From an uncultured Planctomycetaceae bacterium (GTDB lineage: Bacteria > Planctomycetota > Planctomycetia > Planctomycetales > Planctomycetaceae): a stretch of 57,937 bases of DNA. The notes beneath the pieces are model-generated. The model made no database searches. It saw only the letters and a program-made list of their open reading frames with translations, and had not been told where the DNA came from. Positions within the stretch are counted from its first letter, which is position 1. Every line of letters begins with the position of its first letter. Shown here piece after piece: positions 29,167 through 37,873 of this stretch. The translations under genes and the position numbers were made by a program. The DNA lies in contig CAJWGB010000007.1 in the NCBI GenBank assembly GCA_913031625.1, positions 1-57,937 of the forward strand, written 5' to 3'.

Positions 29167-30672
29167 CTATTTCGGGCGCGGATCCACTTTCCAGTCTTTG
29201 TTTCTTCGCAGGCCGTAGTACGGATAATAATCCCATGGAGCATCTTTCCCCAGAGCTCGCGGGTCATTCGTCTGCTTCAGGTATTCAGTGAGTTCCTCCT
29301 GCATCTCTTTCAGTACGTCTGCATAAGCAGGATCGGCCGCAACATTTCGGATCTGCCCCGGATCTTTCTTCAGGTCATACAATTCGTGTTCGCTGCGTTT
29401 GGAGAAAGCGAGATCATAGAATGGACGAAGGTCCGGATTCGATATCTGTTCCATCAGAAGTGTCTTCGAGGGAGCGGAATCTACTTCGCCGAAGGGAATT
29501 GCTCTGGCACAGACAGATGCGTCAGGGTCTCCCGCCGGCCACCGTTCCGGCGCAAAATTATGCAGGTAGAGAAAGTTGCGTTTACGCAGGCCGCGACACG
29601 GAAACCCTTTGCCTCCACTGCGACAGCCATCATGTCGTTCCATCGCAACAAAAGCACGGTTTAGCTTCGGCTCAGTTGTGGCAGATTTGAGTTGGCTGAG
29701 CAGACTGCGCCCCGTCATCTGAGGGTGCACGTCGAGGCCGGCTGACTGCAGAAATGTGGGAGCAAGGTCACTCAGGTTCACAAGAGCATTACTGGTTCGG
29801 CCGGGTGACTTCAAACCACTGCCCCATCGAATCGCGAGCGGGACATGCGTTCCGTCGTCATAGAGTGTGGCTTTCGCTCGGGGAAACGGCATCCCGTGAT
29901 CGCTGGTGACGACCACAATCGTATTTTCAAGTAATCCACGTTTCTCGAGCTGCTCAATCGCCCGGGCAACCATGCTGTCGAAATGTTCTACTTCAACGTA
30001 GTAGTCCAGGATGTCTTCCCGAATCACTGAGTGATTGGGCAGTGAGGCGGGTACCACAACGTCATCCGGATTTCGGTCGTCTCGCAGGCCAATTCCCTTT
30101 CTGTAACCTCGATGAGGTTCAAACGTTCCGAGCCAAAAACAGAAGGGGCGGTTTGCATCCCGTTCAGACAGAAACTGCTGAAAGTTGCCTGCATAATCAA
30201 GATTCGCCATGCCGGGGCGGCCGTTTTTCAGCTGAACCCTGCGGTACTCCGTGCCGGCTGGGTTCTCAGTCCGCCCACCAGGTTCCAGTCGCCCGGGACT
30301 CCACCCCTTCCCGGTGAATGCTGTTTGATATCCTGAGTCGCGGAGCAGTTCCGTGTACGTCGCGAACTTTGCAGGCAGTGTACTGTGGATGTTTCCTGCC
30401 TCTTCGAGTCTCCAGATGTGCTGTCCGGTGAGGATCGCACTGCGGGATGGACCACATGTGGGCGCATCGCAGAAGGCGTGGGTAAAGCGAATTCCTTCGC
30501 GTGCGATGCGGTCAAACGCAGGAGTCTGCACAATCCTGTCGCCATTCGCCCCGGTGTGGGCGTAGCTCTGGTCGTCCGAAATACAAAACAGAATGTTCGG
30601 GCGAATGTCTGTTGCGAGACTGATCGGCGCAAGGGCGAACAGCAGACTGATGCGAGTGAAGAGCGTTTTCAT
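29167..30672 (-). CDS. Secreted sulfatase
   Basis: This 501-residue sulfatase has a signal peptide (MKTLFTRISLLFALAPISLA). The catalytic sequence CGPSR starts at cysteine 73 (formylglycine site), after RPNILFCISDDQS with the metal-binding aspartates. VVTSDHGMPFPRAKATLYDDGTH forms the second conserved block. ATG 30672 overlaps the stop of the upstream DUF885-PQQ gene by four bases (ATGA), so translation is probably coupled. It resembles the heparan N-sulfatase-like branch, but the substrate cannot be named. Confidence 0.93.
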   Translation of the reverse strand: MKTLFTRISLLFALAPISLATDIRPNILFCISDDQSYAHTGANGDRIVQTPAFDRIAREGIRFTHAFCDAPTCGPSRSAILTGQHIWRLEEAGNIHSTLPAKFATYTELLRDSGYQTAFTGKGWSPGRLEPGGRTENPAGTEYRRVQLKNGRPGMANLDYAGNFQQFLSERDANRPFCFWLGTFEPHRGYRKGIGLRDDRNPDDVVVPASLPNHSVIREDILDYYVEVEHFDSMVARAIEQLEKRGLLENTIVVVTSDHGMPFPRAKATLYDDGTHVPLAIRWGSGLKSPGRTSNALVNLSDLAPTFLQSAGLDVHPQMTGRSLLSQLKSATTEPKLNRAFVAMERHDGCRSGGKGFPCRGLRKRNFLYLHNFAPERWPAGDPDASVCARAIPFGEVDSAPSKTLLMEQISNPDLRPFYDLAFSKRSEHELYDLKKDPGQIRNVAADPAYADVLKEMQEELTEYLKQTNDPRALGKDAPWDYYPYYGLRRNKDWKVDPRPK

Positions 30673-33600
30673 TTCTGTGCGCGTCCGAAGCAATAGAGGT
30701 GCCCAGCTGTGCGAATGTAGAGACAGCCGTCCGCAGCAGCCGGGCATGCGTAGACGTCTTCTTTGAAGTCCGCCTGGCCAAGCCGTTTCCACTCAGCTTC
30801 TGCGGAGATCACTGACAGCCGGCCGCGTTCGCTGAGGGCAAACAGTCGTCCGTCAGCCACCAGTGGTGAACTGTAGTACTTGCCACTGTCGACGAGACGA
30901 GCTCGATGCAGTAATTCGCCGGTCTCCTGGTTGAGCGTCGTGCAGATGCCACCGTCACGAACCATAAACATCAAGCCGTCATGACAAACGGGGGAGCTGT
31001 TGCGCGGCACGTTCTGCTTAGTGCTCCAGGCAACGTGAGTGTCAGTAATGTCACCTGTGCCGCCAGGTTGCACCCGCATTGCGACGGTTTGCGCCAGGCT
31101 GAAGATGTCACGAATGCTGTTGTATTCGACGTTGTCGAGGGTACCGCTGGCATCCCGATCGAATTGATCGAAGAAGCTGCGGATTGGACTTTTGGGCAGT
31201 TCGTTCGGTTCAAGGACACCATTGTTGTTTCCATCTGATGTCTGCAGTACCTCCGCAAAAACAGGTTGTTCAGTTTCCTGACCGCCTGTGCAGGCGAGGT
31301 AGAGATGATTGTCGTCACCCACAACTGGTGTCGTGCTCACGACCCGACAGACGCCGCGAAGCACCCACACGACATCACCTGTCTCGTAGTCGTATCCGGT
31401 CACGTGTGCCGAACCACAGACGACGATCTGCCGCCGACCGTCAACGGTCCACAGACACGGTGTGCAGTAATTGCGACGAGCGTTTGGGCGTTCGGCTTTC
31501 CAGATCCGGTCGCCGGTGGCTGCGTTGTAAACAGCAAGGAAAGAATCCGTATCATGGTCCTGAACAAGGATCACGCGATTATCAACCAACAGCGGTGATG
31601 AGGCAGCTCCGAAGCTGTTGTTGAATGGCCCCATGGGGAGGTGCCAGAGCCTGTTGCCGTCGTGGTCATAGCACCACAGTCCGCAGGAGCCGAACATGCT
31701 GATGACGAGCTGCGAATTGGCTGCGACAGTCGCGGTGGCGGGACTGCCGATTCTGTGAACGGATTCCAGTTTGTCTGCCCTCGCATCCTGCTCCCAGATT
31801 ACTTTTCCAGTCCGACGATCCAGAGCGATCGTCGAGAGTCGTTTCTTATCGTTGGCGGTTACAAACACGCGATCTCCCGCGATCACGGGAGACGAATGTC
31901 CTTTGGCAACGGCAGCTCTCCACAGGAGAGAACTTCCCTCCGGCCCGATCGCGTCTGAGGCCGGCAACGTTGTCTCTGCTATCCCCCGACCGCCTGGACC
32001 TCGAAACTGTCCCCAGTCCGGCTGAACGCCCGCGTTTTTCTGTTTGAGTTTTGTCAGCCACTCGTTGACGTTCGACTCCAGTACATCAAGCGGGACGGCC
32101 CCATCTCGCAGGACGATGGCGTGAAAGTCACGAACATCAAACCTGTCTCCCAGTTCCTTCTCTGCTCGAGCTCTGAGCTCGCGAATCTTCAGCTCACCGA
32201 TCTTGTACGCCAGCGCCTGACCGGGCCATGCGATGTAGCGGTCAACCTCGTTCTCGATGTCCAGGATCGATTTCGCGGTATTCTGTTTGAAAAAGTCAAT
32301 TGCATCCTGTCGCGTCCATTTGAGGCTGTGCATGCCCGTGTCGACGACAAGTCGAACGGCACGCCACATTTCGTACGTTAGCTGTCCGAATTTGGAATAC
32401 GGATCTTTGTAGAGCCCCAGTTCCTCTCCCAGTTTCTCACTGTAGAGTCCCCATCCTTCGATGAACGCCGTATAGCCTCCGTATCGTCGGAATTCGGGCA
32501 CTTCCAGTTCCATCGCCAAAGCGATCTGAAAGTGATGTCCGGGCACAGCCTCGTGAAGTGACAGCGCTTCGATTTCATAGATTGGACGGTCCTGAGGCCG
32601 ATAGAGGTTTACGTAGTATCGTCCCGGCCGACTGCCGTCTGCTGCCGGCCGCATGTAGTAGGCGGTCGTGGTATCGGGAGCCATCTGCGCCGGAATGGGA
32701 GTAATCTCATACGGAGCCTTCGGCAGGCGATGGAACAGATCAGGCAGTCGTGGATCAATTCGCCGGCAACACTCTTTGTATGCCTTCAGCAGGTCGTTGG
32801 GATTCGAATAGTAGAACTGCCTGTCCGTTCTCAGGTGGACAAGAAACTCCTGAAACGAACCTTTGAATTTCACCTGTTTCTGAATCTCCTGCATCTCGGC
32901 ACGGATGCGAGCGACTTCACTCTGACCGATGTTGTGGATCTGCTGAGGAGTCAGGTTCGTCGTCGTAAACTTCTTCGCCAGTCGGGCATACATGGCATGG
33001 CCATCCGGGCGCTGCCAGCAGCCCACTTCGTCGAAAGACTCAGCGAGGTATTCCTTTTCAAAGAAGTCCAGAAACAGTCGGTACTTCGGAATAATCTGGT
33101 TGCCGATGACCTTCGCAGCTTCTTTGCGCAGCCGTTCTTTATCGGCGTCAGACAGTTCAGTCTGAAACTTCTTAAATGGGGCGAAGTACAGGCTGTCTTC
33201 GGGACGTTCCACAATCTGCTGGCGGATCTGTGATGGCACCCGCTTCATGACAACCTTTGGGTGCAGCATCTTTGTTTCGATCCCGCGTCGCATCAGGGCG
33301 ATGGTTTGATCCATGTAGACCGGAAACGCCTGCAGCCGCGCCAGCCAGTCCTCGTAGTCCTGGAGCGAGTCGAACCTCAGCGAATCTGCAAGAGTGCTCT
33401 GATCCTGGATTCCGCCCCGCTGATTCAATGGCATGAAGTGCAGCTGTAGCTCGTGATCAGCGATGCGGTTCTCACACTGCTGTTTGAAGAGCCGATAGTT
33501 GAGCTGATCTGAACGGCTGAGTTCCGCCAGCGGGATCTGGTCCAGCAGTTGGAGTGTCTTTCGTGTCTCGCGAGCCGAAGCTTCAATGGCGGCCTGGCTG

Positions 33601-33809
33601 GCGTCTTCCCACTGCTGGTTGTAACGCCGATCGCCGAGAGAAGAAGCCCATGTGGGGTTCTCCGCCATGAGACGCTGCCAGTCAGCATCAAACAGCTGGT
33701 GAAGCCGAACAGCAGGATCCGACGGTTCCTGTGCCTGGATCAACGGGCACATTGAAACAAGGATCAGTCCAATGACTGAGCGAATGCAGCAGAGGCGCGG
33801 ATGCGACAT
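30669..33809 (-). CDS. Exported fusion of a DUF885 peptidase, a PQQ-type beta-propeller and EF-hands
   Basis: This 1046-residue protein has a signal peptide (VIGLILVSMCPLIQAQ). Residues about 30-590 are a DUF885 domain with the gluzincin-like motif HEAVPGHH at 419-426 and FIEGWGLYSE, arguing for a metallopeptidase. From about 598 (PDWGQFRGPGGRG) to the end is a PQQ-like beta-propeller (SPVIAGDRVFV, LYCFGRA). Two EF-hand loops sit inside the propeller: DGNNNGVLEPNE (859-870) and DRDASGTLDNVE (884-895). The two halves are usually separate proteins. ATG 33809 was chosen for the signal peptide. It is coupled by a four-base overlap to the sulfatase downstream. Confidence 0.88.
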   Translation of the reverse strand: MSHPRLCCIRSVIGLILVSMCPLIQAQEPSDPAVRLHQLFDADWQRLMAENPTWASSLGDRRYNQQWEDASQAAIEASARETRKTLQLLDQIPLAELSRSDQLNYRLFKQQCENRIADHELQLHFMPLNQRGGIQDQSTLADSLRFDSLQDYEDWLARLQAFPVYMDQTIALMRRGIETKMLHPKVVMKRVPSQIRQQIVERPEDSLYFAPFKKFQTELSDADKERLRKEAAKVIGNQIIPKYRLFLDFFEKEYLAESFDEVGCWQRPDGHAMYARLAKKFTTTNLTPQQIHNIGQSEVARIRAEMQEIQKQVKFKGSFQEFLVHLRTDRQFYYSNPNDLLKAYKECCRRIDPRLPDLFHRLPKAPYEITPIPAQMAPDTTTAYYMRPAADGSRPGRYYVNLYRPQDRPIYEIEALSLHEAVPGHHFQIALAMELEVPEFRRYGGYTAFIEGWGLYSEKLGEELGLYKDPYSKFGQLTYEMWRAVRLVVDTGMHSLKWTRQDAIDFFKQNTAKSILDIENEVDRYIAWPGQALAYKIGELKIRELRARAEKELGDRFDVRDFHAIVLRDGAVPLDVLESNVNEWLTKLKQKNAGVQPDWGQFRGPGGRGIAETTLPASDAIGPEGSSLLWRAAVAKGHSSPVIAGDRVFVTANDKKRLSTIALDRRTGKVIWEQDARADKLESVHRIGSPATATVAANSQLVISMFGSCGLWCYDHDGNRLWHLPMGPFNNSFGAASSPLLVDNRVILVQDHDTDSFLAVYNAATGDRIWKAERPNARRNYCTPCLWTVDGRRQIVVCGSAHVTGYDYETGDVVWVLRGVCRVVSTTPVVGDDNHLYLACTGGQETEQPVFAEVLQTSDGNNNGVLEPNELPKSPIRSFFDQFDRDASGTLDNVEYNSIRDIFSLAQTVAMRVQPGGTGDITDTHVAWSTKQNVPRNSSPVCHDGLMFMVRDGGICTTLNQETGELLHRARLVDSGKYYSSPLVADGRLFALSERGRLSVISAEAEWKRLGQADFKEDVYACPAAADGCLYIRTAGHLYCFGRAQK

Positions 33810-34208
33810 GAGTGACTCCGGATAATCATACGCGGAACTTCGACAGAAAGGCGAAGCAAACGCCATCATAGCCAGATCTGCGGCGCAGTGTCGTGTCACT
33901 CACTGCCTCAACAACCTGCCCGTTGAAGAGATGGGTACATTATTCCGCGAGGTATTCAGGTTCAGGAGGATATAGACGTCAGCGATATCGAAGACACTGG
34001 CTTGCGCCACGTGCCTGTGTTGCCTGAACTCGGACCAGCTACAAGTACGCACCGCCAGCAGGTGAGGTCGTTGCCGATCAGGTCTCCAGGTTCGTTTCAT
34101 CCAGGACTGTGACCTGACCAGAGAGGGGGCCAGCTGAGTTCACGGTGTTTCTGGCGAAGTCCACTTCCTCGGGAGATGTGTTGGAATGCACGTGCGACGT
34201 TGCTGCTT
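33810..34208. other. Intergenic region upstream of the DUF885-PQQ gene
   Basis: About 400 bases between two minus-strand genes with no believable reading frame. It should hold the promoter of the DUF885-PQQ gene. I see no clear terminator or other structure. Confidence 0.4.
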
Positions 34209-35192
34209 CTAATGCTCAACGACCCAGATGTTGCGGAATCGAACCGGGTCGCTGTGATTCTGCAGTCTGATTGGAAATGCTTCCGGAGATTCCGGCTTAC
34301 CTGCTCCGGTCTTCCGCTCAACATTGAAGTTGTTGTGAATCAGGACACCGTTATGGCGGACTGTCAGGCGAGCATTCTTAATCTTCTTTCCTTCTTCATC
34401 GAATCGCGGTGACCGAAACGTGATGTCGTAGGTCTGCCACTGCAGCGGAGGCAGGCACATGTTGATGTCGGGAACCTGATAGCGATACAGAGCACCGCAC
34501 TCATTGAAGGCACCTTCAAGTCCAAATGAATCCAGAACCTGAACTTCATAACGGCTCTGCAGGTACACGCCGGAGTTCGATCGTTTCTGGCCCCGTGAAT
34601 TCGGCATGTAAGGCAGACGGAATTCAACGTGCAGGGTGAAATCCTCAAAGGTCCTTTTGAAGTCAGCACCTTCCATCAGCAGATTGTTTTCGGTAACCCG
34701 ACCATTGGTGAATTCATCCGCGTCGGAGCCGTCAAACAGAACAATGGCATTCCGTGGGGCCCGGCAGCCGAGAGTCGGGCTTGTTCGTACGACTCGAGGA
34801 AATCGCCCGAGGTTGTATCCTCGATACGACTTCAGGAGCAGATGTCCAGCGGTGATTTCGCCAGTCAGAGTTTCGCCCGTCAGAATCACTGTGTCCCCGT
34901 TGCGGGAGCCTTTCAGCCGCTGCTTTTCGGACTTGTCCCAGCCGGCACCCGGCAGACCGTGATTGAATACCACTGCATCAAATTCACCGTTGCCAAGTGC
35001 AATGACCTGAACTCCGATTCGCTCCAGACCGGCTGTGCGCCCGTCATCGGGAAGGATCAGGCCGGAATACTCTCCCTGAAACGGAAAGTCTTCATCTACG
35101 TTTCCGGGATCGGCTGAGACGAATGGTTTGTCCTGAGCAAACGAAGTAGTGGGAACAAGCAGCAGAATCAGCAGAGCAACAGATGAACGCAT
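34209..35192 (-). CDS. Secreted DUF1080 protein (3-keto-disaccharide hydrolase family)
   Basis: This 327-residue protein has a signal peptide (MRSSVALLILLLVPTTSFAQ). Residues about 30-130 form an N-terminal beta region. Residues about 140-327 are the DUF1080 concanavalin-like lectin fold: ALFDGSD-type start (IVLFDGSDADEF), the segment FTLHVEFRLPYMPNSRGQKRSNSGVYLQSRYEVQVLDSFG, and the ending RFRNIWVVEH. Members hydrolyse 3-keto-glycosides or bind sugars. It lies 127 bases downstream of the deiodinase-like selenoprotein on the same strand. Confidence 0.9.
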   Translation of the reverse strand: MRSSVALLILLLVPTTSFAQDKPFVSADPGNVDEDFPFQGEYSGLILPDDGRTAGLERIGVQVIALGNGEFDAVVFNHGLPGAGWDKSEKQRLKGSRNGDTVILTGETLTGEITAGHLLLKSYRGYNLGRFPRVVRTSPTLGCRAPRNAIVLFDGSDADEFTNGRVTENNLLMEGADFKRTFEDFTLHVEFRLPYMPNSRGQKRSNSGVYLQSRYEVQVLDSFGLEGAFNECGALYRYQVPDINMCLPPLQWQTYDITFRSPRFDEEGKKIKNARLTVRHNGVLIHNNFNVERKTGAGKPESPEAFPIRLQNHSDPVRFRNIWVVEH

Positions 35193-35319
35193 CGGGAAGG
35201 AATCCGGTCGGGAGGAAAATGGGCAGTCAAACTGCGGGCGAATGGGTGCGCAGCCGTGCTGGTCAGTCTGACGAGAACAACGGGTGGTCTCAAGCAAGTC
35301 TTTGAAGAACGGCGTGGCG

Positions 35320-36507
35320 TCAGCGGTTTCGGTGAGGGATTCGGGAGCCGGGTGGGCGACCGAGAGATCGAAGATCGTCTGACGATGGCACCGGAGTCGG
35401 CCGTCTGCCTCTTGATCTGCGACTTCCCGTCGTTCGTCGCGACCCGCCGTCAGCATCACGAACAAGGCTGACCACGTACTCCTGGCTCACCGGTTTGCAG
35501 AACGTTTCTGCATCGTCACAGGCGAAGTAGCGCACAGTGATTCGGAATTCCGGAGGGCCATTGCCGGCGGAGACATGGTCGGAGACTTCCACCAGAAACT
35601 CCCGAGGATCAGCATCCGCGTCCGCTTTTACATCGGGGCCCTTCCCTTGCGTGTCAGCGACTTCGATTCCCTGCATGTCCGTGATCTCGTACGTGACGGG
35701 AGCCGCTCTGTTGTTCCAGTGAACTTTGTGCAGCGGATCGAGAAAGAACCCAAGGTAGAGTTTTCCGGTGCCCTCACGAAAGTAGTCTGGCTGGATCTCA
35801 GCCCGAAGTTTCACGTAGTACGTGGCGTTTGATTCCAGCGGCCTCACCTTGACAGGCATCATAGAGCCTGGAAGTTGAACGCGTGGAACTACTCCTTTAA
35901 CAGCCGTCTTCGGACGTTCGATCTGAGGAAGATCCAGTTGCGAGATCCGGGTCGGTCGCGGAACGGGGCCAACGAGTCGTTCCAGATCTTCTCTCAGGGC
36001 AGCCGGATTGCTCCATCGACGCGCAACCACGATCTTCCCCTGAGGATTGACGACGAACTCCGAATTGGGCCGATCTCCAAACGCATGCTTGAGATCGTTG
36101 TCCATCGTGTCACACAGCCATTGAAACCTGGTTCCCAGTTTCTGTTTGGCTTCTTTGACATGCATCAGCCGTTCTTTTAGTGAAAACGGTGCAACGTAGC
36201 CGTTGTTCTCCGGGTGGGCGAGCGCTTTATAGATGTAGTAGAACTTCACACCCTTACGACTGTAGTCGCGTTGAACTGTCTCCAGACCGGGGACATTTCT
36301 CAGGAAAGGCGGTCAGGTTAGACAGCCAAATACCAGGACGCTGTATTCTCCTTTCAACTCTGTGAGTGAGAATTCCTGCCCGTCTTCGTCAAATGCGGTA
36401 ACACTCGGCAGCAGTTTGCCCTGGAGTGGAAGAGCCCCATTTCGCGACGGCTGAGCGAAAGCGGTTGTTGCGGCCATCAGCCCAACGATGAACGTGATTC
36501 GTTGCAT
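35320..36507 (-). CDS. Exported deiodinase-like selenoprotein with a C-terminal DsbD-like domain
   Basis: Read through the TGA at 36313-36315, this frame encodes 395 residues from ATG 36507. Residues 1-18 are a signal peptide (ending TTAFA). A peroxiredoxin-like N-terminus leads to VLVFGCLTUPPFLRNVPG, giving a C62-x-x-U65 centre. The context matches the iodothyronine deiodinase family (human form FGSCTUPPF). SLKERL and the DTMDN block (from residue 133) are further landmarks of that family. Residues about 205-350 form a beta domain with HWNN and FACDDAETFCKPV (C330 and C337), like the N-terminal domain of DsbD. Nothing indicates iodothyronine as substrate; a periplasmic redox role is inferred. 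The tail (about 355-395) is arginine-rich. Gene callers would split it in two. Confidence 0.9.
36274..36297 (-). promoter_or_regulatory. Putative SECIS element of the deiodinase-like selenoprotein
   Basis: On the minus strand, TGUC C CC pairs with GG A GACA around the loop GGUCU (36288-36284), with one C-A mismatch, plus AA/UU pairs across a bulged G. The loop begins 24 bases after the UGA. GGUCU is the apical loop sequence of the E. coli fdhF SECIS. Folded by hand. Confidence 0.7.
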
Positions 36508-36946
36508 AGTCCGCTCCTGTCCTGATTGTTATTGCCACTCAGAGTTAACGTACCGTCATAACTGCACTTGCGCTCCCGTTGTGACAAACCCGTCAACGCT
36601 CCGAAGTGGTCGGTGTTTTTCTGAATCCGGACGTTCGCCCACGCGTGTCCCGCATTTCATTAGGAAACCAAAGTATTGGTTGAGGTAAAATGCAGCAGAT
36701 ATATGGATCCGGAACTGCGCGTCGTGGATTCCCCGTCCAATTCCTACGATTCCCGCCGGCTCGATCGGTTTCGGCGGAGCACAATGTACACAGACGTCAG
36801 TGCCGAGAGGGCTTGAGGTTGGTGTGGTCATCGGATGTGGATTTGACCCTACATATCTTCGTCCGTAGACTGGTTTTAGAGTGATTTTGGAAGATGTTCT
36901 GCGTTTTTACAGGCAACACGAGAGAGCCTGAAAACAGGGAATAGCC
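36508..36946. other. Divergent promoter region between the selenoprotein and hydrolase genes
   Basis: About 440 bases between divergent genes with no credible coding region on either strand. It is locally richer in A and T (for example around 36680-36710 and 36835-36905), as expected for promoters of both genes. GGGA precedes the hydrolase start. I see no repeats or clear operators. Confidence 0.45.
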
Positions 36947-37873
36947 ATGAAACGTGCGTTTGGATCAATACTGACCGGGATGCTTCTGCTGACTGTGCTG
37001 CAAAGCAACGGACTTGCGCAGCCGGAGCCGGAAAAACAGACCATCAATGCCGCGGACGGCTGGCCACTGAAAATCACCTACTACCCGTCACCCGGGGATC
37101 GTGAGAGTCCAGTGGTGATCATGATTCCCGAGGCTGACGGCATCAACAGCCTGACACAGAGTGTTTACAAGACTCTCGCCACACGCCTCCAGGCGAAGAA
37201 GTTCGCTGTGGTCACTGTTGACCTGCGAAAGCACGGCGACAGCGTTCCGGCAGACGTCGATGAGAACGATCGCAGGATGAAGCTGGTTCCAACGGACTAT
37301 CAGGCGATGGCCGGGATGGACCTTGTTGCTGTCAAAAACTTCCTTCTTACGGAACATGAAAAGGAAAAGCTGAATATTCGCAAACTGGCAATCGTGTCCG
37401 CAGGTAAGAGCTGCGTTGTCTCGAATGTATTTGCCGCTGCTGACTGGGCTCAGAAGCCATGGAATGATGCTCCTGTACCTGCGCTGCGTACTCCTCGCGG
37501 TCAGGACGTTCAGGCACTTGTGATGTTGAGCCCTGAGTACACGCTCCGAGGTATGACGACTCATACACAGGCGATGCGGTTTTTGAGCGACCCCGGTAAG
37601 AACATCGCGGTGCGTATTTTCCGAAACGAAACCAATCGTGTGGAAAAGTCGACTACGGATCGTGTTTTTAAATTGTTTGACCTCAAGGACAAAGACACAC
37701 TCGAGGCCCGCAAGGTCATTAGTGTTCCCAACCCGCAGGATTCTTCCGGCGACCGATTGCTTGAACTTCGAGGTGGCAAGGGAACGATTGAGCTGATCGA
37801 GCTGTTTCTGACCGAATTTGTCGAAAAACGAGAAACACCGTGGCGGACCCGTAAGAGTAAGCTCGAACGCTGA
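36947..37873 (+). CDS. Exported alpha/beta-hydrolase-like protein without an obvious catalytic serine
   Basis: This 308-residue protein has a signal peptide (ILTGMLLLTVLQSNGLAQ). The fold pattern of alpha/beta hydrolases is visible: PVVIMIPEADG at strand 3, FAVVTVDLRKHGDS after strand 4, and KLAIVSAGKSCVV where the nucleophile elbow should be. The elbow reads S-A-G-K-S instead of G-x-S-x-G, so the usual nucleophile is doubtful. It may be an inactive relative or a binding protein. The FHA-domain gene starts 38 bases later. Confidence 0.75.
   Translation: MKRAFGSILTGMLLLTVLQSNGLAQPEPEKQTINAADGWPLKITYYPSPGDRESPVVIMIPEADGINSLTQSVYKTLATRLQAKKFAVVTVDLRKHGDSVPADVDENDRRMKLVPTDYQAMAGMDLVAVKNFLLTEHEKEKLNIRKLAIVSAGKSCVVSNVFAAADWAQKPWNDAPVPALRTPRGQDVQALVMLSPEYTLRGMTTHTQAMRFLSDPGKNIAVRIFRNETNRVEKSTTDRVFKLFDLKDKDTLEARKVISVPNPQDSSGDRLLELRGGKGTIELIELFLTEFVEKRETPWRTRKSKLER

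Follow-up and report, generated by a model that had tools for sequence, protein, structure and literature searches.

The window analysed here is a whole 57,937 nt stretch of DNA from an uncultured Planctomycetaceae bacterium (GCA_913031625.1, contig CAJWGB010000007.1), on the minus strand of which a frame running from 36507 to 35320 is interrupted solely by a TGA at 36313–36315 and terminated by a second TGA. The original prediction that two frames join in phase across the internal TGA to give one protein of 395 residues, with selenocysteine (Sec, U) at position 65, was confirmed, this being one interrupted frame and not two; the motifs it had named (GCLT-U-PPF, SLKERL, DTMDN and a C330-x6-C337 pair) are all present in the translated frame. 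The features of the gene are as follows.

35320..36507 (-), whole gene of the predicted selenoprotein, 395 residues plus the terminal TGA
36514..36518 (-), Shine-Dalgarno-like AGGAG, ending 6 nt upstream of the ATG
36454..36507 (-), putative signal peptide, residues 1–18 (sequence composition only)
35965..36420 (-), redoxin/deiodinase-like thioredoxin-fold domain, approximately residues 30–181 (Pfam AhpC-TSA and Redoxin; AlphaFold model)
36322..36324 (-), Cys62, putative resolving cysteine for Sec in a CxxU pair (invariant in 31/31 rows)
36313..36315 (-), TGA codon, predicted selenocysteine 65 (31 TGA and 3 Cys among 34 family members)
36277..36295 (-), SECIS-like hairpin with a GGUCU loop, spanning +18 to +36 downstream of the TGA (covariation, restricted codons, held-out rows)
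35437..35892 (-), DsbD-alpha-like beta-sandwich domain, approximately residues 206–357 (DsbD_N profile, HMM-HMM comparison, structure model)
35518..35520 (-), Cys330 of the C-x6-C pair (30/30 rows reaching that column)
35497..35499 (-), Cys337 of the C-x6-C pair (30/30 rows reaching that column)

The putative signal peptide was read by eye from the sequence (R3, a hydrophobic stretch, and AFA immediately preceding Q19). The downstream neighbour (34209–35192, minus strand) encodes a protein that carries a 3-keto-disaccharide hydrolase domain (119 bits) and has no evident redox link, and a 1076-residue frame on the same strand (30669–33899) joins DUF885 (605 bits) to a PQQ_2 beta-propeller. No conserved gene neighbour pointing to a substrate was found in flanks of 1.5–3 kb, some of them cut by contig ends, the largest cluster comprising 3 loci; an Rfam search of 35000–37000 returned just two matches, both at chance level. 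Scanning the window mechanically from stop to stop identified 48 TGA junctions with at least 55 codons before and at least 90 after the stop, this gene's included; chance joins are thus common, and the case for a selenoprotein rests on homologues.

Homologues and the Sec/Cys column

A search of 98 related genomes yielded 23 matches above 300 bits in 21 genomes; 20 of these matches, from 18 genomes, contain the TGA, and the other 3 lack a stop. A scan of species genomes contributed 15 loci, including three named Fuerstiella, the complete genome K23_9 (L061) and two Acidobacteriota MAGs, and all of them (15/15) have TGA at the U65 column. Across the 36 loci fetched (L021–L041, L051–L065), TGA occupies the U65 column in 33, the remaining three (L038, L039 and L040) carrying the Cys codons TGT, TGC and TGT, respectively. 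After removal of duplicates (L051, L052, L053, L059, L062) and distant loci (L042–L050) the alignment comprised 31 rows, with the other 30 members sharing 43–64% identity with the window protein; three loci fetched later, two of them second copies in genomes G002 and G021, were reserved as held-out tests. The family, window gene included, therefore stands at 34 members with 31 TGA, 3 Cys and no other residue at a single column, so that the proposed check by alignment of Cys homologues came out in favour of selenocysteine. A quick tree of the 34 rows places the Cys forms in a single clade, with one change separating Sec from Cys. In a phylum-wide sample, at least 4 of 392 genomes match at E <= 1e-20 (up to four first-look candidates scored per genome), one of which (G364) is new.

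Residues C62, U/C65, K94, H98, W130 and D133 are invariant in 31/31 rows, as are C330 and C337 in 30/30, and the claim of a CxxU pair is borne out by the invariance of Cys62, three residues N-terminal to Sec65. An in-frame stop is present and the window holds 48 mechanical junctions of this size, yet neither a mutation or sequencing error that breaks the frame nor a pair of separate genes has more than a negligible chance of being the explanation: the TGA occupies the identical column in 31/34 members, drawn from many assemblies that include a complete genome (L061), Cys alone replaces it, and residues are conserved on both sides. Both readings were rejected.

The three Cys forms feature C-x5-C in the DsbD-like domain, versus C-x6-C in the 27 aligned Sec forms; the Sec/Cys state thus tracks the spacing of the second pair, within one clade only. 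In a second copy from genome G002 (L084, contig C52), both domains are followed in the same frame by an extended C-terminal region resembling a PQQ/BamB-type beta-propeller (by eye), the frame measuring 751 residues so far and still open at the end of the locus. Among the distant loci, L042 (G088) and L047 (G042) are candidate single-domain deiodinase-like selenoproteins with FGSCT-U-PPF and FGSYT-U-PPF motifs, respectively, the latter scoring 106 bits against T4_deiodinase (PF00837) and retaining Glu and Trp; L043–L045 and L048–L050 contain Cys-type FGNFTCGPF deiodinase-like domains with EF-hand-like repeats (by eye) on the N-terminal side. This order is the reverse of that in the Sec family, where EF-hand models match 15/31 members at E <= 0.1, mostly C-terminal to both domains, and the window protein not at all.

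SECIS-like hairpin and selenium machinery

A hairpin had been predicted to start 24 bases after the UGA; it is the GGUCU loop that does so, starting at +25 with 24 nt between, whereas the stem begins earlier, at +18. The apical loop is, we assume, identical to that of the Escherichia coli fdhF SECIS, and GGUCU or AGUUU is found in 26/28 rows, with the loop G at +26 in 31/31 TGA rows. Over the 28 rows, 88.8% of cells are paired versus 80.6% in shuffled controls (0/500 shuffles), and double-change cells number 25 versus 8.4 (0/500), as counted on a structure drawn up from the same rows; further pair types, one of five covariation measures, do not exceed the shuffled level (8 versus 7.2; 176/500). 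Sliding the partners by 1–3 columns lowers pairing to 29–53%, and RNAalifold, unaided, recovers the same stem but closes the loop with another pair. Pair 18/36, both sides of which are third codon positions, occurs as CG in 14 rows, UA in 6, GC in 4 and AU in 1, with 3 unpaired; pair 25/28 is AU in 14, GC in 12 and unpaired in 2, and the pair at +22/+32 is unpaired in 20/28 rows. A quick tree-based reconstruction requires, on the best tree, 11 changes of the loop pair and 12 for each member of pair 18/36, but on well-supported branches only 2 independent changes of the loop pair are countable (P 0.5), too few to demonstrate that the covariation is independent.

Constraint on the coding sequence points in the same direction as the pairing, all three testable hairpin codons being among the least variable of 115 columns (codon entropy is lowest at residues 72 and 76, and that of residue 75 ranks fourth from the bottom). 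Every Ser at codon +9 is encoded by AGT (16/16; background 0.116 of Ser codons in the rest of these genes) and every Gly by GGT (13/13; background 0.219), while Val at codon +7 is GTC in 28/30 (background 0.396). Each of the held-out TGA rows (n=3) pairs at 7/8 positions, the Cys forms at 5, 3 and 4. Folding energy alone does not distinguish the hairpin from shuffled sequence (z +0.94; 168/200 shuffles as stable). Taken as a comparison of sequences, these data support a predicted hairpin that accompanies the TGA form and is absent from the Cys forms.

The presence of selenium machinery in the genome had been proposed as a further check, and three of its four components were recovered: selA (506 bits), selB (320 bits) and selD (246 bits) each exceed the curated cut-off, the last within one 751-residue frame whose N-terminal part resembles NADH dehydrogenase (by eye); fusions of selD to NADH dehydrogenase-type proteins are described in a marine survey (PMC2398784). 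SelA exceeds its cut-off in 18/18 genomes with the TGA form versus 52/98 overall (P = 2e-6, ignoring kinship) and in 0/3 genomes with the Cys form, two of which score 37 bits (G008) and 31 bits (G053), the third (G012) having a tRNA-Sec and, at the end of a contig, a partial selA of 173 bits.

The fourth component, selC, was not found in the assembly. Covariance-model searches of its 444 contigs (150/938 and 38/914 first-look candidates scored) gave no tRNA-Sec, the best match being a tRNA-Ser at 46.1 bits; a sister-genome tRNA-Sec used as a DNA query matched best inside a tRNA-His, and local inspection around selA, selB and selD was likewise negative. tRNA-Sec exceeds 73 bits in 7/7 other genomes of the same genus and 60 bits in 15/18 TGA-form genomes, the three exceptions being the window's own genome, G017 and G050. 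In the sister genome G001, where selA and selD are ordered as here, tRNA-Sec lies ∼3.2 kb past selD, a place at which the own assembly has no tRNA; selC therefore either lies elsewhere or is absent from the 444-contig assembly.

The missing tRNA-Sec would also suit a UGA read as Trp, or by leaky read-through, rather than as Sec, a reading whose chances appear vanishingly small: non-TGA homologues carry Cys and never Trp, selA, selB and selD are present, and the hairpin travels with the TGA form. TGA moreover terminates this gene and several others in the family, and, with Cys in the non-TGA homologues, decoding as Trp was rejected. Insertion of selenocysteine at UGA65 by SelA, SelB, SelD and tRNA-Sec, directed by the adjacent downstream hairpin, is almost certain as a prediction from comparative data.

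A redoxin domain joined to a DsbD-alpha-like domain

Residues 30–161 match both AhpC-TSA (PF00578; 33.6 versus a cut-off of 26 bits) and Redoxin (PF08534; 30.4 versus 26.6 bits). The suggested search against the deiodinase family (PF00837) found a near match at 26.1 bits, below the gathering score of 27, and the window protein reaches the cut-off of no NCBIfam model; between them the 31 members match seven such models at E <= 0.01, with one named after a Sec motif (NF041054, matched by one member) and NF045694, the TsoB model, not among them. When the whole-chain AlphaFold model (pLDDT 86.3) was compared by VIA-align with Foldseek's best 1000 chains, the top match was mouse Dio2 (9h48; Z 19.8, rmsd 2.0, 158 residues, 25% identity), followed by Dio3 (4tr3; Z 18.7, rmsd 4.2) and ResA (Z 17.2), with several peroxiredoxin structures at Z ∼16. 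Foldseek E-values place the C-terminal, two-domain portion of DipZ at the top (with a high rmsd) and ResA next, with Dio2 at rank 25 and Dio3 at rank 31; in a PDB profile search Dio3 was best at 2.8e-6, nearly tied with ResA at 6.2e-6.

The TGA had been placed at the deiodinase Sec site, and the Sec columns do coincide in the profile alignment to Dio3 (4tr3). The proton relay of Dio2 is reported to consist of Ser127, Thr129, Tyr157, Glu160, His162 and His182 (PMC11592359). In the profile alignment to Dio3, counterparts are retained as Thr64, Tyr93 and His98, while Ser127 is replaced by Cys62 and Glu160 by Leu96; Dio2 His182 falls in an insertion that has no counterpart in the window protein. 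These comparisons support an N-terminal domain with a redoxin fold related to the deiodinases, which by the family's own cut-off is not a member of PF00837.

The C-terminal domain (residues 206–357) is modelled as an Ig-like sandwich with a pLDDT of 92.9. DsbD_N (PF11412) matches 19/30 members at E <= 1 (best 3.9e-6), the window protein doing so at 0.019 with 12.4 bits for the whole protein and 15.4 bits for the domain alone, below the gathering score of 25 bits; one relative (G013) attains 25.2 bits, reaching the cut-off with its neighbours in the frame. When compared by HMM-HMM with DsbD_N segments from relatives (18 segments, selected from 30 fetched loci for a Cys-pair motif), the domain gave probabilities of 91.7% (local) and 83.1% (global) with the Cys pairs superimposed. 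DsbD chains reach Z 6.6–7.0, below or tied with unrelated Ig-like domains of up to 8.7, and a profile of the C-terminal domain retrieved no DsbD chain from the PDB at E <= 5. The prediction of a DsbD-like domain thus held for the invariant Cys pair and the HMM-HMM match, but not for the window sequence's own score, which is below the cut-off; structural comparison places DsbD-alpha no higher than other Ig-like folds. A divergent, remotely DsbD-alpha-like domain with an invariant Cys pair is the assignment that the sequence comparisons support.

A proposed relay and its relation to known systems

As a whole, these observations are best explained by an exported selenoprotein combining a deiodinase-like Sec site with a relay domain (probability roughly 0.7), in which export across the inner membrane is highly likely. 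Sec65, which takes the place of the first cysteine in the thioredoxin motif, would attack the substrate; Cys62, three residues upstream, is a reasonably likely selenenylsulfide partner for it. C330 and C337 of the DsbD-alpha-like domain might then hand electrons to Sec65/Cys62 and themselves be re-reduced by a DsbD/thioredoxin-like membrane pathway, a proposal that we consider evenly poised; for recharging by a DsbD pathway, the genome has two other frames that exceed the DsbD_N cut-off. The overall activity would be that of an extracytoplasmic Sec-dependent thiol reductase or peroxidase, for which a peroxide or disulfide substrate appears likelier than an iodinated compound.

A peroxiredoxin-like peroxidase, with a C-terminal domain serving a purely structural or substrate-binding role, is an unlikely but credible alternative, consistent with the AhpC-TSA and Redoxin matches over their Pfam cut-offs, the peroxiredoxin structures at Z ∼16 and the failure of structure to single out DsbD-alpha; the invariance of C330 and C337 (30/30), their alignment with the DsbD_N pair and the one member (G013) that, together with its in-frame neighbours, attains the DsbD_N cut-off argue against it. 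A self-contained extracytoplasmic relay, in which the DsbD-alpha module is covalently wired to the deiodinase-clan Sec site for the reductive dehalogenation of halogenated organics, appears very unlikely; if true, it would be a bacterial precursor of the animal deiodinases, or a parallel development, that comes with a built-in reductant. A genuine extracytoplasmic reductive deiodinase or dehalogenase, with halogenated phenolic compounds as its substrates, is likewise very unlikely: Dio2 and Dio3 head the VIA-align comparison, Dio3 is narrowly the best PDB profile match and the site Sec, Thr, Tyr and His are retained, but the relay Ser127 and Glu160 (PMC11592359) have given way to Cys62 and Leu96, His182 has no counterpart, and PF00837 is narrowly missed, whereas the related single-domain L047, with its Glu and Trp, scores 106 bits.

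The exported selenoprotein with a relay domain is of interest as a tractable relative of the thyroid deiodinases, for which the question of what re-reduces the Sec enzyme may be answerable within one polypeptide, and the family extends the prokaryotic selenoproteome by a new architecture in which a single chain, probably exported, bears both Sec and DsbD-type cysteines. As the genes look split at the stop codon, automatic annotation would be likely to cut them in two. That deiodinase-like selenoproteins are known in bacteria, as the original prediction had it, is corroborated by the Sargasso Sea and GOS surveys, which describe them under PF00837 (PMC1088965, PMC2398784), and by a 2026 review of prokaryotic selenoproteins covering 119 families or subfamilies (PMC13188914). 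Table 1 of that review lists a deiodinase-like protein as UxxC and the rhodanese/DsbD fusion-like TsoB, and the combination of deiodinase and DsbD is absent from the table (PMC13188914). A full-text search of open-access journal papers for deiodinase with DsbD retrieved this review as its sole match (PMC13188914). The pairing, predicted to be undescribed, was accordingly not encountered in the literature searched; a list of planctomycete selenoproteins (PMC4807772, table S9) may include the family under a different name.

The protein shares with the bacterial deiodinase-like selenoproteins a Sec at the same column, a deiodinase-type thioredoxin fold and a bacterial SECIS, and differs from them in its CxxU with Cys at -3, its score below the PF00837 cut-off, the replaced Ser and Glu of the relay and the DsbD-alpha-like C-terminal domain. 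With Dio2 and Dio3 (9h48, 4tr3) it has in common 25% identity, the Sec column, Thr, Tyr and His-Pro; unlike them it is bacterial, probably exported, altered in the relay (Ser to Cys, Glu to Leu, second His without counterpart) and equipped with a second domain. The NCBIfam model NF038285 (deiodinase_rel) is matched by all 31 scanned members (best 6e-22), the window protein scoring 43 bits against a cut-off of 250 and across 127 residues only. PF11412 is resembled in the modelled Ig-like fold and the YxAC...C motif aligned by HMM-HMM, but here the domain is redoxin-fused and its Sec forms have C-x6-C versus C-x4-C (one C-x5-C) in the DsbD_N segments of relatives. TsoB (NF045694), likewise a selenoprotein named after a DsbD-like part, is rhodanese-based with two Sec in UxxxxU (PMC13188914), and another known thioredoxin-fold selenoprotein with an extra Cys-bearing domain has UxxC and three conserved Cys, including a CxxC, in that domain. 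As far as these searches go, the family is a real subfamily with a new architecture within the known bacterial deiodinase-like/redoxin selenoproteins.
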